Of a stretch of 64,000 nucleotides of DNA, positions 51,943 to 63,648 are shown in pieces (the stretch's first letter is position 1; the number at the start of each line of letters is the position of its first letter). The position numbers and the translations under genes were made by a program. The DNA lies in the NCBI RefSeq assembly GCF_002834295.1, contig NZ_PISP01000002.1, forward strand, positions 310,001 to 374,000. Direction: 5' to 3'. The DNA comes from Rhodohalobacter barkolensis (GTDB lineage Bacteria; Bacteroidota; Rhodothermia; Balneolales; Balneolaceae). The notes below the pieces were generated by a model that was given only the letters and a program-made list of their open reading frames with translations, was not told the DNA's origin and did not search any database.

Positions 51943-53196
51943 ATGGATTCGAAAAAAACAGATATTATCGTATATGCGCATTGGCAAGGTATGTCAAACC
52001 CTGTGAAAATGGGCATACTTTCTGCGCAGGAAGCACGAGGTCATTTAGCTTGGAGTTTTGCTTATGATGAAGAGTGGCTGAATACACGGTCTCAGTTGCT
52101 GGTAGACCCCGATCTAGAGTGGTTTACCGGTCCTCAATATTCTAAAGATGACAAACCCAACTTTGGAATGTTTCTTGATTCCATGCCTGATACCTGGGGC
52201 CGAACACTCATGAAAAAGCGAGAGGCCCTGCTGAAACCGGAGGGCGAACAAGCCCGCAGATTAACAGACATTGATTACTTGTTGGGAGTGTATGATCCGG
52301 CTCGGATGGGTGGTCTACGTTTTAAATTGCAGGAGGACGGTCCATTTCTTGATAATAATGAAGAGAAGTCAATTCCTCCCATTACAGATATTCGAGAGTT
52401 GCAGGTAGGTGCTGATCTTGTAGAATCGGATGAAGATTCAGAAGTCGTCCGCAAATGGTTGAAAATATTACTCGCTCCGGGATCTTCTTTAGGTGGAGCC
52501 CGCCCCAAATCATCCGTATTAGATGAAAACGGAGAACTGTGGATTGCTAAATTTCCTTCACGTCAGGATACGACTGACATGGGTGCATGGGAATACGTTG
52601 CTTGGAGTCTGGCAAGATCCGCAGGTATAACGGTTCCTGAAGCCAAGGTTGAACAAATTACCGGGAAGTATCACACTTTTTTCTCAAAACGATTCGACCG
52701 GACTGGTGACGAACGAGTTCATTTTGCTTCCGCAATGACGATGACAGGTCATTTTGAAAGTGGGATCAGAGATCAAACCCCAAGTTATTTGGAGCTGGCT
52801 GAGTTTATTCAATTCAATGGGGCTTCTCCCGATGATGATCTTCACGAATTGTGGCGTAGAATTGTCTTTAACATTGCCATTTCAAACACAGATGACCATT
52901 TGAGAAATCACGGTTTCATTATTACAGATGAAGGGTGGCGATTATCTCCTGCTTATGATATGAATCCGTCAATAGACAAAGCCGGACTTGCTTTAAACAT
53001 AGATTTAGAATTGAATACCTTGGACTATGATATTGCTAAATCTGTAGGGGTATACTTTAACCTCAATAAAAAAGAAATGGATACTATTATTGAGGAAGTA
53101 CAAGAGAGAGTATCGAAATGGGAAGAGATAGCTACCAATATTGGAATTCCATTGGTTCAACGCCGTTTAATGGAGGCTGCGTTTAATGTAATTTAG
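51943..53196 (+). CDS. hipA: HipA-type serine/threonine kinase toxin
   Basis: HipA toxins phosphorylate tRNA synthetases or similar targets and cause growth arrest. The 417-residue protein has the family layout: an N-terminal HipA_N1-like domain (about 10 to 105), the ATP-binding GSSLGGARPKSSV near residue 182, the catalytic-loop region ISNTDDHLRNHGF near residue 316 and the DFG-like element LSPAYDMNPS after it. The motifs are intact, so an active kinase is expected. The partner XRE gene is two bases upstream. Confidence 0.92.
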   Translation: MDSKKTDIIVYAHWQGMSNPVKMGILSAQEARGHLAWSFAYDEEWLNTRSQLLVDPDLEWFTGPQYSKDDKPNFGMFLDSMPDTWGRTLMKKREALLKPEGEQARRLTDIDYLLGVYDPARMGGLRFKLQEDGPFLDNNEEKSIPPITDIRELQVGADLVESDEDSEVVRKWLKILLAPGSSLGGARPKSSVLDENGELWIAKFPSRQDTTDMGAWEYVAWSLARSAGITVPEAKVEQITGKYHTFFSKRFDRTGDERVHFASAMTMTGHFESGIRDQTPSYLELAEFIQFNGASPDDDLHELWRRIVFNIAISNTDDHLRNHGFIITDEGWRLSPAYDMNPSIDKAGLALNIDLELNTLDYDIAKSVGVYFNLNKKEMDTIIEEVQERVSKWEEIATNIGIPLVQRRLMEAAFNVI

Positions 53197-57361: not shown

Positions 57362-57435
57362 GCACCCGTAGCTCAACTGGATAGAGTACCTGACTACGAA
57401 TCAGGCGGTTAGAGGTTCGAATCCTCTCGGGTGTA
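57362..57435 (+). tRNA. tRNA-Arg(ACG)
   Basis: A complete 74-base cloverleaf: acceptor GCACCCG with CGGGTGT (one G-U pair), D arm GCTC/GAGT, anticodon arm CCTGA-CTACGAA-TCAGG with anticodon ACG, variable loop CGGTT, T arm AGAGG-TTCGAAT-CCTCT and discriminator A. CCA is not encoded. ACG (wobble inosine) reads CGT, CGC and CGA. The integrase gene 258 bases downstream suggests that its 3' end is an attachment site. Confidence 0.95.
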
Positions 57436-57448
57436 CAACTAAAAATAT

Positions 57449-57692: not shown

Positions 57693-58868
57693 ATGGCTTA
57701 CTTAAAAAAACGCGGAAAAATCTACTATGCTAAATGGCATAAATCAGAAAATGGCAAAAGTTTTTCAGTGCAAAAATCTCTGAAAACACGTCACAAAGAT
57801 GTTGCAGAAAAAATGATTCGAGAACTTAATAAACTTGAATCATTAGGAAAGATCGATCCATTAGCGCGAAGTTTTGATCCAATCAGAGAACTTAAGAAGC
57901 TTGAGAAGCCACACCATGTAAGTTGCAAAACCGTTCGGGAAGCTGCCGACCGGTTTCTTGCAACCAAGGAACACAAATCGAAGGCTACGAAGGAAGCGTA
58001 TCAATGGGCTATCGATCATTTTATTGATCACAACAATCTTGTTAAAGCAGATCCTCTCGATATCACAGCAAGACATTTTGAGGAGATCATTTTTAAGCCG
58101 GGAATTAAGACAAATACCCGGCACTACTATTTCAGACACTTCCGAGCGTGGTGGAACTGGATGCTGAGGAAGAAATTTGTTGACGAGAATCTGTTTGAGC
58201 AAATCCGGCCCGATATGCCCGAGAAGCGGGAGAATACCCGGCCTAAGATGATTTCAGTAGAAGAGCTGCAGAAACTCTTTAAAGCGTATGACAAACACTA
58301 TGAAAAGGTTTCGAAACGTGATGATTTCTGCTTTATGAAAGCGCAGCACTGGTTCAAACCGTTGATGATGGTCTATTTTTATGCCGGACTCCGCCGGAAT
58401 GAAGCGGCTTATGATCCCAACCTGGAATACTCCGGACTGAAAGGGGAGAATCTGATTTATGAGAATGGAGAGTTGAGCTATATTTATCTACCGCCAACCA
58501 AGGGCAGGAAGGAGCGACAGATCCCAATCATCCAGGAGTTGAAAGAGAGCCTGGAAGAGTATTTGAAACTCCGGGGAAAAGTAAAGCGCAAAGAGTACGT
58601 ATTTGTCTATCTCGGCGGGGCACATGCCGGACGGCCGGTAACCGGTGAACGTGCTTATAAACTCTTTAAGGACTTTTTGGATGACGCTGATTTACCAAGC
58701 TCCAGAACCATTCACGGAATGAGGCACCAGGCTGTTACCACATGGATAGAGAAGGGATTTCACACAGCAGAGGCCGGTTATATGGCCGGGCACTCTTCAC
58801 AGCGTGTAACGGAAAAATACACGCATTTAACGGCGAAGAGGTTGAAGGAAAAGATGGATTCTCTATAA
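57693..58868 (+). CDS. Tyrosine recombinase integrase
   Basis: A 391-residue phage-type integrase. Residues 1 to 55 form an arm-binding AP2-like domain (KRGKIYYAKWHKSENGKSFS), about 80 to 180 a core-binding SAM-like domain, and 185 to 391 the catalytic domain with R234 (AGLRRNEA), H341 and R344 (HGMRHQ), H367 (AGHSS) and tyrosine Y376 (EKYTHL). All catalytic residues are present. GGAGGA precedes the ATG. It presumably inserts the island at the neighbouring tRNA-Arg(ACG). Confidence 0.95.
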   Translation: MAYLKKRGKIYYAKWHKSENGKSFSVQKSLKTRHKDVAEKMIRELNKLESLGKIDPLARSFDPIRELKKLEKPHHVSCKTVREAADRFLATKEHKSKATKEAYQWAIDHFIDHNNLVKADPLDITARHFEEIIFKPGIKTNTRHYYFRHFRAWWNWMLRKKFVDENLFEQIRPDMPEKRENTRPKMISVEELQKLFKAYDKHYEKVSKRDDFCFMKAQHWFKPLMMVYFYAGLRRNEAAYDPNLEYSGLKGENLIYENGELSYIYLPPTKGRKERQIPIIQELKESLEEYLKLRGKVKRKEYVFVYLGGAHAGRPVTGERAYKLFKDFLDDADLPSSRTIHGMRHQAVTTWIEKGFHTAEAGYMAGHSSQRVTEKYTHLTAKRLKEKMDSL

Positions 58869-58931: not shown

Positions 58932-59264
58932 ATGAAATTTAAATCAACATTCGGCGCCGTCATTAGGGAGATGAGAAAACAGAGAAACTTACCTATAAGG
59001 AAAGTAGCGGCTGTTCTAGATATTGATCCATCAACGTTGAGCAAGATTGAGAGAAATGAACGATCAGCAAATAAAGTTATGGTACTTAAGCTCGCTGAAT
59101 TGTTTGAAATTGACTCAGACGAATTATTAGTGTCATTTTTAAGTGACAAAATTGCAAACGAATTATTCGAAGAAGAAAATACAGAAGAAGTTTTAAAAGT
59201 AGCTGAAGAAAAAATTGAGTATTTAAAAAGTAAAAATATTAAGCAAGGTAATCTAAATTTTTAA
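58932..59264 (+). CDS. XRE-family control-type regulator of the RM cluster
   Basis: The 110-residue protein has an XRE helix-turn-helix (about residues 5 to 62: IREMRKQRNLPIRKVAAVLD, PSTLSKIERNERSA) and an acidic helical tail. Such small XRE proteins (C proteins) upstream of methyltransferase and endonuclease genes time restriction after modification. The methyltransferase ATG is only 3 bases after its stop. Confidence 0.82.
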   Translation: MKFKSTFGAVIREMRKQRNLPIRKVAAVLDIDPSTLSKIERNERSANKVMVLKLAELFEIDSDELLVSFLSDKIANELFEEENTEEVLKVAEEKIEYLKSKNIKQGNLNF

Positions 59265-59267
59265 ATT

Positions 59268-60848
59268 ATGTCAGAACTACTAACTATCAAAGAAGCTAGT
59301 AAATGGGCTTCAAAATTTTTGGAGAAGGACGTTACTACTTCCAATATTTCATACTTAATCCAGTATGGTCGCGTCCCTAAAGTTGGAGACAACGGGAATA
59401 CATTAGTTTCTAAAGAAGATTTAAAAAAGTATTACAAGGAAAATGGCGATTTAAAAGAGAAAGAATGGAAGAAAAAATTAGGCGATGACTTAAACTGGGC
59501 TTTATCGTTTTCAGAATACAAAGAATCAGAAACGACAAAACATGTTCATCGTTTACATCCCTATAAAGGGAAATTTATACCACAGCTTGTGGAGTATTTT
59601 ATAGATGACCATACAGATAAGTTTAAAAAGGATGTTTTTTTTAAACCAGGTGATGTAATATTAGATCCTTTTTGTGGCTCAGGCACAACTTTGGTTCAAG
59701 CAAATGAATTAGGAATGCATGCTGTAGGAATTGATGTTTCCTTATTTAATGCTCTTATAAGTAATTCAAAAGTTAGCAAATATGATCTAATTGATATTAA
59801 AAAAACAGCTGACAGGATTACTCAAGATTTAAAAGAGTTTTTATCAGATAGAAATAATATTGAGTTTGAAAGCAAGCTTTTAGATGAACTCAAGAGTTTT
59901 AACGATCAACACTTTCCTTCTCCTGAATTCAAGAGAAAAGCCAGAAATGGAGAAATTGATGAAAAGAAATATGGAAAGGAAAAAGAGAAGCAATTTTTAC
60001 CAATTTATCATAAGCTCATTGAAGAGTATGATATTCAATTGTTACAAAAGGATAACCAGGGGTTTCTTGATAAATGGTACCTCCAAGTTGTAAGAGATGA
60101 GATTGAGTTTGTATTTCAAAAATTAAAAGAGGTTGAAAATCCAAGAACCAAAGAGATACTCAGTATAGTATTAAGCCGTACAATTCGATCCTGTAGAGCT
60201 ACTACTCATTCAGATTTGGGTACCTTGAAGAAGCCTCAGCTTACTACGTACTATTGCAAGAAGCACGGTAAAATCTGTAAACCACTTTTTTCAATTTTAA
60301 GTTGGTGGAAAAGATATTCTAAAGATACAGTAAAGCGTCTATCGCAATTTGATGATTTGAGGACTGATACATTACAAAAATGTTTAACAGGTGACAGTAG
60401 AACGATAAATATTGTTACTTCCCTGAGTGAGAAAAGTCCAGATTTAGCAAAAATCGTAAAAGAAAAAAAAATTGATGGTATATTTTCAAGCCCACCTTAC
60501 GTCGGTTTGATAGATTATCATGAACAACACGCATATGCATACGATCTTTTTGGATTTGAAAGAAAGGATGAATTAGAAATTGGTCCTCTCTACAAAGGTA
60601 AAGGACAAGAGGCAAGAGATTCGTATGTGGAGGGTATTGCTGCTGTTTTAAATAATTGTAAGAAATATCTTAAAGAGGACTACGATATATTCTTAGTGGC
60701 AAATGATAAGAACAATCTCTATCCTGAAATTGCTGAAAAGGCCGGCATGAAAATTGTTAATCAATATAAAAGACCTGTATTGAATCGAGTTGAAAAAAAC
60801 CGATCAGCTTATGCTGAAATAATTTTTCATCTAAAAAGTCTCAATTAA
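59268..60848 (+). CDS. DNA amino-methyltransferase of a type II RM system
   Basis: The 526-residue enzyme has an N-terminal helix-turn-helix-like part (about 1 to 65: LTIKEASKWASKFLEKDVTT), then HRLHPYKGKFIPQLVEYFID, the SAM-binding motif I DPFCGSGTTLVQANELGMHA at about 133 to 152 and the catalytic motif IV SPPY at about 408. SPPY favours N4-cytosine methylation, though N6-adenine cannot be excluded. Motif I precedes motif IV with about 250 residues between them, which probably contain target recognition. It is followed 24 bases later by the endonuclease gene. Confidence 0.85.
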   Translation: MSELLTIKEASKWASKFLEKDVTTSNISYLIQYGRVPKVGDNGNTLVSKEDLKKYYKENGDLKEKEWKKKLGDDLNWALSFSEYKESETTKHVHRLHPYKGKFIPQLVEYFIDDHTDKFKKDVFFKPGDVILDPFCGSGTTLVQANELGMHAVGIDVSLFNALISNSKVSKYDLIDIKKTADRITQDLKEFLSDRNNIEFESKLLDELKSFNDQHFPSPEFKRKARNGEIDEKKYGKEKEKQFLPIYHKLIEEYDIQLLQKDNQGFLDKWYLQVVRDEIEFVFQKLKEVENPRTKEILSIVLSRTIRSCRATTHSDLGTLKKPQLTTYYCKKHGKICKPLFSILSWWKRYSKDTVKRLSQFDDLRTDTLQKCLTGDSRTINIVTSLSEKSPDLAKIVKEKKIDGIFSSPPYVGLIDYHEQHAYAYDLFGFERKDELEIGPLYKGKGQEARDSYVEGIAAVLNNCKKYLKEDYDIFLVANDKNNLYPEIAEKAGMKIVNQYKRPVLNRVEKNRSAYAEIIFHLKSLN

Positions 60849-60872: not shown

Positions 60873-61928
60873 ATGGATAACGTAAAAAAAGAAAAGATTG
60901 CTATTGAGGTAATTCGAACTCTTGCAGGTAGGTTTGACTCTTTTCCTGAGAATTCAGATTCAAATAGGAATGCACCTTTTCATAAAGCTTTCTTAAATGC
61001 ATTTAAAGATAATTTTAAGGAACTAGAGAAAGGTACTCCATATTTTATTTCTTTAAGCAGCTGGTTGCATGGTTTAAATACAACTTTAGGACAATCATTT
61101 TTTGAAAAGGTTGCACATATTTTATCTGACGGTGAAAAAAGGTCATTTACAGGTGATGATAGATTGCCTATTTCAAAGTATCAGACTGAGACTATTTCAG
61201 ATATTATTACTGATTTAAAAAACAAAGAAAAAACACCTTCTTTAGTTGATGAGAATGATTTGATATTTCAGAAGTACCAAAATAGTGATGGTAAACCCGT
61301 TGATTTCACAGCTGATGTTTTTTATCAAATAGATAACAAGGTTGTATGTATAGAATTGAAATCTGTGAAACCTAACGCTGGAGAGATAAGAGGTGAAAAA
61401 AGGAAAATACTAGAAGGAAAAGCATCACTTTGTAAGCTTTATAAAGACAAAGATATTAAGTTTTATTTTGGATTTCCTTTTGATCCAACAGGTGAGTCAG
61501 ATTATGATTACGATGTGCAAAGATTTTTAAATCATGTAATTGATGGTAATAAGTATTTAGATAGAGAAGAGGTGTTATTAGGACCAGCTTTATGGGATTA
61601 TTTATCAGGTGAAGAAAATACCATGCAAGAGCTCATTTCAATTATAAATGATATAGCAAAACCTGATTTTAAAAAAAAGCTGAGAAAGTTAAACGAAGAT
61701 GTGTTGTATTTAAATTTTGAAAATGATGAATATGATCGCTTATTGAAACAATGGCATTTATACAGAGAAGCACAATTTCGAAATGAAAAAAATGTCAAGA
61801 AAGTACAATCTTCTACTAATACCAAAATTAGAAAGAAATTTAATCAACAAAGATTTAAGACTGGTTCAACGAATTACGGAGAGTATAATGAGTCCAGAAT
61901 TCATGAATTATTAGACTTTATTGATTAA
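60873..61928 (+). CDS. TdeIII-family type II restriction endonuclease
   Basis: The 351-residue protein matches my memory of the TdeIII endonuclease family: an early NRNAPFHKAFLNAF segment, FISLSSWLHGLNTTLGQSFF and a PD-(D/E)XK core with D148 (FTADVFYQI) and E161-L-K163 (VVCIELKSVKPN). TdeIII recognises GGNCC to my recollection, so that target is a possibility here. The C-terminus is basic and probably flexible. The gene is part of an operon with the regulator and methyltransferase upstream. Confidence 0.8.
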   Translation: MDNVKKEKIAIEVIRTLAGRFDSFPENSDSNRNAPFHKAFLNAFKDNFKELEKGTPYFISLSSWLHGLNTTLGQSFFEKVAHILSDGEKRSFTGDDRLPISKYQTETISDIITDLKNKEKTPSLVDENDLIFQKYQNSDGKPVDFTADVFYQIDNKVVCIELKSVKPNAGEIRGEKRKILEGKASLCKLYKDKDIKFYFGFPFDPTGESDYDYDVQRFLNHVIDGNKYLDREEVLLGPALWDYLSGEENTMQELISIINDIAKPDFKKKLRKLNEDVLYLNFENDEYDRLLKQWHLYREAQFRNEKNVKKVQSSTNTKIRKKFNQQRFKTGSTNYGEYNESRIHELLDFID

Positions 61929-61962: not shown

Positions 61963-63648
61963 TTATAGCATCGATTTAATGTCAATGACAAAAATGGGTG
62001 GTATTAATCCAGATAGTATAATTTGATGAGTTGAATTTGGAAATATTTTATTACCACCTAAAACGCTCTTGTTAATTTTTTCAACATCAAGATTTCTGTT
62101 CTTCATAGCTTGTATATCTTCTTCGTTGACGTCATAACAAACAATTACATCAATTTCATTAAACATTTTCTGTTCATCACTAAAATCTTTGAGGACATTT
62201 CTTAGCTTTGATTTGAATTCAATAACAACCTTTTTCTTACCCCATTTTGCATATAAATCATATTTATTTCTATAACCGCTTACAAGTGGAGTAATTTCAG
62301 TGATAATTTCTCTACCTATTAACTCATAGAATATTGCAGCAACGCTAGCTTCTTGATGTCTAGGAGTTTTCTGGAAACGTGTATTTTCAGAGTTTAGATC
62401 CAACATATCTTCGATATCGGCGAAGGTTTCTTCTTTGTCCCAATCAGTTTCAACAATTATGTCTCCAGAAATGTACTTAGCTAACTTTCTAAATTCAGAA
62501 AATATGCTTTTGGAATATTTTCTATAGATTCTTGCTTGTGCACCATGTATAGATTTTCTTCCGATATCAAAAGTTAGTTGTCTGTCTTCAAAAATTATAA
62601 ATATTTGAGCCCAAGAACCCTGTGCACCAGTAATTGGATGATCTACAGAAACTCCAGTTGGCATACCTTTGACTGATGTATAAATCCCATTTTGAAAAAC
62701 AGAATAGTAAAATTTTTCCATCCACTCATCATCTTCAAAATTTTCTTCTAACGCTAGATGATTGTGAATGGAAAGAAAATTCCAAACACTTCGTTTTGGT
62801 ACAAGGCAGGCGTAATAATTAATAACCCTTCCCTTATGATCGAAACGGCCAATGTCGTATATAATCTTGTCTCTTAGTTTTCGCCGTTTATCGTTATCAT
62901 CTCTATGAGCTTGATTTGCGTATTCTTTGTATTCTTCAAGTGAAATTTTAGTGTTTTTATCTAAACCATCAGTGGGTGCCCAATATTTGTAAGGTAGCTT
63001 AGTTGAATTTTCAATACCATTGATGTCAACATGTTCCAAGTTAATTGATAGTGATTCACCGTCATTCCAAAGTGTTTTAGTATTTCCTAGTGCAGTTTTT
63101 GTCCTTAAAACATACTGTAATTGGGCAAAGTTTAAATCAAATATGGGAGAACTTTTTACTTGACGTAATATAATTTCAGTTCCAGTAAAGTCTTCATCAA
63201 TTTGATCAAATTCTAGCTTTAGCAACTCTTCATCAGTTCTAGATTTCCAGTTAAATGCATCAATAATGCTTCCAACGGAAGTAACTCCATCATATGTAGT
63301 TTTTATCCTGAAGTTGTTACAGGAAAATATCACAAATGTTAAACCAACTCCTTTTTCACCAATTAATTCTTCATTTAGATCCTTATTTGTTGAAAAAGGA
63401 GCCAATAATTTTGGGAGCTTATCCGAGTCAATACCGATTCCATTATCCCTAATAACAATAGTTTTATTTAAAGCATCAATTCGAATAAAGATTTCTGGAC
63501 TGGATGGGTTTGCTTCTTTAATTGCGTCAATGGAATTTTGACATAGTTCAGCTATTATATCCCATTCGTGGTTATAACTATCGTCAATATCACGAATGCT
63601 TTTTCTAATTTGGTTAACACTTTGCTTTAAAAATTCAATCTTCTTCAT
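61963..63648 (-). CDS. GHKL-type ATPase fused to a PD-(D/E)XK-like domain
   Basis: The 561-residue protein has an Hsp90/MutL/MORC-type ATPase head: the N-box with N38 in ELCQNSIDAI, D68 in DNGIGID and a GEKGVGLTF lid motif near residue 100. A middle region to about residue 430 is unassigned. The last 120 residues have D464 (YDLYAKW), E477 and K479 (KVVIEFKSKLRN), the layout of a PD-(D/E)XK nuclease. It is convergent with the TdeIII operon, with 34 bases between. A DNA-sensing, ATP-gated nuclease in defence is my inference; the ATPase assignment is firm. Confidence 0.75.
   Translation of the reverse strand: MKKIEFLKQSVNQIRKSIRDIDDSYNHEWDIIAELCQNSIDAIKEANPSSPEIFIRIDALNKTIVIRDNGIGIDSDKLPKLLAPFSTNKDLNEELIGEKGVGLTFVIFSCNNFRIKTTYDGVTSVGSIIDAFNWKSRTDEELLKLEFDQIDEDFTGTEIILRQVKSSPIFDLNFAQLQYVLRTKTALGNTKTLWNDGESLSINLEHVDINGIENSTKLPYKYWAPTDGLDKNTKISLEEYKEYANQAHRDDNDKRRKLRDKIIYDIGRFDHKGRVINYYACLVPKRSVWNFLSIHNHLALEENFEDDEWMEKFYYSVFQNGIYTSVKGMPTGVSVDHPITGAQGSWAQIFIIFEDRQLTFDIGRKSIHGAQARIYRKYSKSIFSEFRKLAKYISGDIIVETDWDKEETFADIEDMLDLNSENTRFQKTPRHQEASVAAIFYELIGREIITEITPLVSGYRNKYDLYAKWGKKKVVIEFKSKLRNVLKDFSDEQKMFNEIDVIVCYDVNEEDIQAMKNRNLDVEKINKSVLGGNKIFPNSTHQIILSGLIPPIFVIDIKSML

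Follow-up and report, generated by a model that had tools for sequence, protein, structure and literature searches.

The gene P0001, located on the minus strand from position 63648 to 61963 of the window (the whole stretch of 64,000 nucleotides analysed here), encodes a protein of 561 aa in which a GHKL ATPase domain is joined to a probable PD-(D/E)XK nuclease domain. The open reading frame, starting with ATG and ending with TAA, is a real gene, with near-full-length homologues 58, 31 and 26% identical. The product is probably a working fusion of an ATPase with a nuclease, serving as defence cargo. The reading that we favour, and hold to be rather probable, is that of a single-gene, ATP-gated clamp nuclease which, like VcSduA, would shield the host and the resident element from incoming DNA. 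In the surroundings of the gene, a scan for promoters and terminators returned sites no commoner than in shuffled sequence.

Domain architecture of the fusion protein

The GHKL ATPase domain (residues 29-165; 63154..63564, minus strand) is recognised by two Pfam families, PF13589 (HATPase_c_3), which covers residues 29-151 above the cut-off (1.8e-10), and PF02518 (2.6e-10). Its N box ELCQN (63535..63549, minus strand) extends from E34, the catalytic glutamate, to N38, the Mg/ATP asparagine, and its G2 box GEKGVG, corresponding to the ATP lid (residues 97-102; 63343..63360, minus strand), can be read directly. In the full-length homologues (58, ~32 and ~27% identity), E34, N38, D68, G70, G72, G97, K99 and G100 are invariant. 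The ATPase motifs listed in the preliminary description of this DNA (N38, D68, G97 to G102) are indeed present, with G102 varying among homologues, as in the Priestia protein that displays GGKGVAN at the G2 box. Given the PF13589 and PF02518 scores and the invariance in homologues, these residues are not due to chance, and the GHKL motifs are, by sequence, intact. P0001 shares this type of ATPase domain with MutL, MORC and Hsp90, HtpG being its strongest profile match (probability 97.6%, 3e-12), whereas the match to MutL and Hsp90 ends at the ATPase domain and no MutS or chaperone context is found. Against full-length MutL models, the score stays below the cut-off (TIGR00585, 27 bits for a cut-off of 180).

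The middle domain (residues 166-395; 62464..63153, minus strand) is probably S5/transducer-like, as suggested by its invariant residues and by Hsp90, GyrB and ParE matches obtained by Foldseek with a low-confidence model of P0001; the AF2 model of this domain is mixed alpha/beta, with low pLDDT. Invariant in full-length homologues are R182, T183, T185, G188 and N189 of the sequence LRTxTxxGN (181-189), as well as all four residues G363, R364, K365 and S366 of GRKS (363-366). By eye only, GRKS resembles LNxSRE of the Hsp90 middle domain, the HtpG profile alignment stopping short of it. Outside the ATPase domain, no named family was found for P0001 in the profile libraries searched. A HAD_SAK_2 match (0.017, under the cut-off) was taken as chance.

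In the C-terminal domain (residues 415-561; 61966..62406, minus strand), ten residues are invariant in all five sequences aligned, namely E433, E442, Y463, D464, L465, E477, F478, K479, D488 and K494. E442, a helix-1 acidic residue (62323..62325), D464 of YDL (62257..62259) and E477 and K479 of E477-F478-K479 (ExK; 62212..62220; all on the minus strand) compose an E-D-ExK set, kept in every homologue covering the C-terminus, down to ~27% identity. D464, E477 and K479 had already been pointed out, to which the fourth core residue, E442, and the invariant GRKS are now added. The structure prediction that had been proposed as a check was performed with AF2 on three sequences (two runs, pLDDT 45-50; 50 for the C-terminal model). 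The low-confidence C-terminal model displays the order alpha-beta-beta-beta-alpha-beta, canonical for PD-(D/E)XK, with a helix bearing E442, a strand, a strand after D464, a strand ending at E477, a helix and a last strand. The homologue L002 reaches the cut-off of CoiA_nuc (PF06054; 20.5 vs 20.3 bits, E 5.7e-4) over a span that includes the equivalents of D464, E477 and K479. The match is weaker for the homologue L001 (0.14), and P0001 itself does not match CoiA_nuc. CoiA differs from P0001 as it is a competence protein devoid of GHKL domain. Searching the PDB by sequence retrieved no relative of the C-terminus, the matches of P0001 being confined to relatives of its GHKL domain and to a small number of designed proteins that look like chance hits.

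The motif, the secondary-structure order of the low-confidence model and the single CoiA_nuc match at threshold point to a probable PD-(D/E)XK nuclease, an identity that we consider very likely. They also support the earlier proposal that a nuclease-like domain is combined here with a clamp-type ATPase. It is improbable that the C-terminus is no DNA nuclease at all but an RNA-acting domain, or a binding domain with an ExK by chance. Such a reading could invoke the low confidence of the structure and the weak, mixed best Foldseek matches of the C-terminal model, which include tRNA-splicing endonucleases. However, it fits poorly with four catalytic-type residues invariant to ~27% identity in the PD-(D/E)XK order and strand positions, and with the CoiA_nuc match at the cut-off.

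Relationship to paraMORC3 and Shedu type I-D

The paraMORC3 proteins were defined by Iyer, Abhiman and Aravind in 2008 as carrying a GHKL domain, an S5 domain and, at the C-terminus, a restriction-fold domain that displays E-D-ExK. They are sporadic and laterally mobile, and occur in restriction-modification (RM) contexts or stand-alone; some of the stand-alone ones may act in repair (PMC2292703). VcSduA from Vibrio cholerae, a paraMORC3-like GHKL-DUF4263 protein assigned to Shedu type I-D, protects against phage, and each of the mutations E27A and K557A abolishes this protection (Nat Microbiol 2025; PMC12137116). Thus, the GHKL-nuclease design is already known and functional. The preliminary description, which recognised no named system here, holds at the level of the sequence family but not at that of the domain order, which is the same in paraMORC3 (PMC2292703) and VcSduA (PMC12137116).

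P0001 resembles VcSduA by its N-terminal GHKL domain with motifs I-IV, which characterises Shedu type I-D, by a presumably clamp-like middle domain, by its C-terminal PD-(D/E)XK motif and by its organization as a single gene in an accessory island. E34 of P0001 aligns with the N-box glutamate of GHKL-Shedu proteins. Whereas VcSduA bears the DUF4263/SduA_C signature, no SduA_C is detectable in P0001: PF14082 (SduA_C/DUF4263) matches none of five members of the P0001 family at E<=10, and nothing in its own genome at E<=1. Like paraMORC3, P0001 associates GHKL, middle and C-terminal E-D-ExK regions, is sporadic and mobile, and stands in an RM context, whereas its affinity to paraMORC3-like proteins is limited to the GHKL domain. 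This affinity was gauged against three stand-ins with an N-terminal GHKL domain (L045, L046 and L051), taken from a Shedu comparison set made up of the PF14082 proteins of the phylum. The P0001 family profile matches these three GHKL-SduA_C proteins over the GHKL domain only (89.8%, 2e-6), and hhalign between the C-termini aligns the ExK strand only, with a probability of 0.7%. In a GHKL tree, both families are placed on separate branches, with a joint clade not rejected (p-AU 0.42). As the P0001 and Shedu comparison profiles are shallow (Neff about 2), a lack of similarity carries less weight than it would if the alignments were deep, and it is with such shallow profiles that P0001 does not appear as a member of Shedu/DUF4263.

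The design of P0001 can be regarded as a variant of that of paraMORC3/Shedu I-D, whereas its membership in that family is not established. It is quite conceivable that P0001 arose independently, outside Shedu/paraMORC3, by the joining of a GHKL clamp ATPase to a PD-(D/E)XK domain, and would then represent a separate rare defence family and a design that has arisen more than once. Possible, though rather doubtful, is the view that P0001 belongs to paraMORC3/Shedu type I-D and that divergence has made its nuclease unrecognisable, which would be compatible with a clamp-nuclease mechanism. The same succession of GHKL, middle and E-D-ExK regions, the joint clade that the tree tolerates, and the definition of paraMORC3 by E-D-ExK and S5 agree with such a divergence. 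On the other hand, PF14082 is unmatched, the C-terminal alignment is confined to the ExK strand, and the GHKL domain is nearer to HtpG than to the Shedu set.

Host element, neighbouring TdeIII operon and homologues

P0001 is carried by an element of ~35.3 kb, extending from 57392 to the window-equivalent position 92775 (G000:C2:367392-402775) and bounded by 47-bp exact att repeats. The attL (57392..57438, plus strand) is the 47-bp 3' part of a tRNA-Arg(acg) at 57362-57436, exactly repeated near G000:C2:402728-402775. The tRNA gene is followed by a tyrosine integrase (57693..58868, plus strand; Phage_integrase 1.6e-17), relatives of which occur in 26 of 92 genomes of the host family; the P0001 gene is absent from the neighbourhoods read around them. 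The cargo consists of an HTH-methyltransferase-TdeIII operon, the P0001 gene and a phage-like block including endolysin-like proteins, an ArdC/ParB polyvalent protein and a primase. Comparison with the nearest relative, G042, offers no clean empty site as its tRNA-Arg is occupied by a different integrase and element, which makes this tRNA an integration hot spot.

Other genes of this element were noted in passing. Beside a lysozyme-like protein, a run of genes (L015:4358-8862, window-equivalent 67357-71861) encodes proteins of 130-489 aa, which G042 and G043 (L071, L070) possess in an identical order and with 27-46% conservation. Three of them (489, 256 and 211 aa) have no match in PHROGs, and the run possibly encodes virion proteins from a temperate virus not described so far, which may lack a tail. 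The polyvalent protein of 1455 aa (L015:9667-14034) assembles in a single chain a RecA-like ATPase, an ArdC antirestriction N-domain, a zincin-like peptidase and a ddrB-like ParB. Near the right part of the element, an HSDR_N-like protein of 368 aa (L016:548-1654) is 93% identical to a G043 protein, compared with about 28-60% for the other proteins common to both elements, which indicates a recent exchange. Outside the element, an ORF at 51943-53196 (417 aa) was identified, by eye only, as a HipA-like kinase. In another genome of the phylum (L019:69-3006), a gene read by eye as a HerA-like ATPase overlaps that of a GHKL protein, in what looks like a two-gene defence-type pair.

The operon next to P0001 comprises an HTH regulator, possibly a controller protein (58932..59264; HTH_3 1.7e-13; Control_protein 9.6e-6), a DNA methyltransferase of 526 aa (59268..60848; N6_N4_Mtase 2.9e-18; PADLOC MTase_II 9.7e-242) and a type II restriction endonuclease (REase) of 351 aa (60873..61928; RE_TdeIII, PF09520 7.5e-57; PADLOC REase_II 2e-75), all on the plus strand. 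The REase adjoining a methyltransferase is the arrangement of a TdeIII-type system, and it lies tail-to-tail with P0001, 34 nt separating both stop codons, in agreement with the preliminary description. The G+C content is 0.320 for P0001, 0.312 for the RM operon and 0.409 for the upstream chromosome in the window.

This proximity could suggest that P0001 is an accessory factor of the TdeIII system, looping or processing the DNA that separates recognition sites from cleavage sites, or degrading cut or unmodified DNA. We consider this unlikely, although the convergent arrangement, the RM-like G+C content and the Priestia homologue, located about 6 kb from an NgoFVII-type RM system with Vsr, would suit such a role, which has been proposed for the RM-associated MORC/paraMORC proteins in RM operons. 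Indeed, P0001 is encoded on the opposite strand and therefore not co-transcribed with the RM genes, and no TdeIII system is present at any of the four homologue loci. Moreover, type II REases of the TdeIII kind are not known to require an ATPase. The few homologues do not retain this adjacency, which is therefore no evidence of joint function; with the functional coupling of P0001 and TdeIII thus conjectural, it is simpler to read P0001 as an effector acting alone.

The family of P0001 is rare and scattered. By tblastn over plasmids, near-full-length relatives were found on a 9.2-kb plasmid of Lactiplantibacillus plantarum (about 31-32% identity) and on a 163-kb plasmid of Priestia megaterium (about 26-27%). 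A scan of GTDB contigs added two proteins from MAGs, L001 (58% identity over residues 5-561) and L002, a partial sequence at a contig end of a Magnetobacteriaceae MAG (57%), bringing the homologue set to four. In the 92 genomes of the host family, no further full-length relative was found; other matches cover the GHKL domain only, one of them being a histidine kinase when read in its full context. With the C-terminal profile, the window gene was the sole match in 394 genomes of the phylum. From five IMG/VR scans and a phage collection, the one relative obtained was an rIIA-like protein sharing only the GHKL domain. With two Firmicutes plasmids, two MAGs and a single phylum genome in 394, P0001 is probably laterally mobile. 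On these counts, the reading as a housekeeping gene was rejected, and the few homologues show no sign of a conserved housekeeping context, which had been named as a refuting case.

The neighbourhood survey that had been proposed is thin because only four homologues are available. It retrieves a sporadic gene, on a mobile island with an RM system in the window and near RM and Vsr genes in Priestia, but not a conserved TdeIII adjacency. The L. plantarum homologue is flanked by an HTH gene and a toxin-antitoxin pair, that of Priestia has a cluster of NgoFVII-type RM, Vsr and AAA genes about 2-9 kb away, L001 neighbours a NarE-like protein and L002 the rpoBC genes. RM genes are thus nearby at the window and Priestia loci only, and the neighbours differ at each homologue, which argues against an obligate partner. 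Kinship between the HTH of L. plantarum and that of the RM operon was dismissed as not specific (27% over 60 aa). The contexts in the window, L. plantarum and Priestia are mobile elements. They would also suit a MutL/topoisomerase-like protein devoted to DNA processing or repair in such elements (replication, recombination or competition between elements) rather than a phage-defence effector, and Iyer et al. suggested a repair role for some stand-alone paraMORC3. This explanation has little probability, as the related element blocks in G042 and G043 do without the P0001 gene, next to which neither MutS nor a helicase nor any other such partner is conserved.

Proposed mode of action

GHKL proteins dimerise through their N-terminal domains upon binding ATP, which is contacted by a basic residue located in the next domain. 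In the favoured reading, that of an ATP-gated clamp nuclease, P0001 would dimerise through its ATP-bound GHKL domains, while the middle domain would provide the ATP-contacting basic residue, R364 or K365, GRKS (363-366) being the natural candidate, and would close a channel around DNA. ATP turnover, together with a target feature such as a DNA end, a structure or a missing modification, would then release the C-terminal PD-(D/E)XK domain, allowing it to cut foreign DNA. The TdeIII system would travel on the same element as a defence cargo in its own right. As P0001 is not a detectable Shedu member, the mechanism of VcSduA is carried over by analogy. The defence activity suggested earlier is itself inferred.

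If this is true, GHKL-nuclease phage defence would extend beyond the signature domain of Shedu, and searches based on DUF4263 would therefore miss such systems. P0001 would also provide a second example for asking what the GHKL clamp senses.
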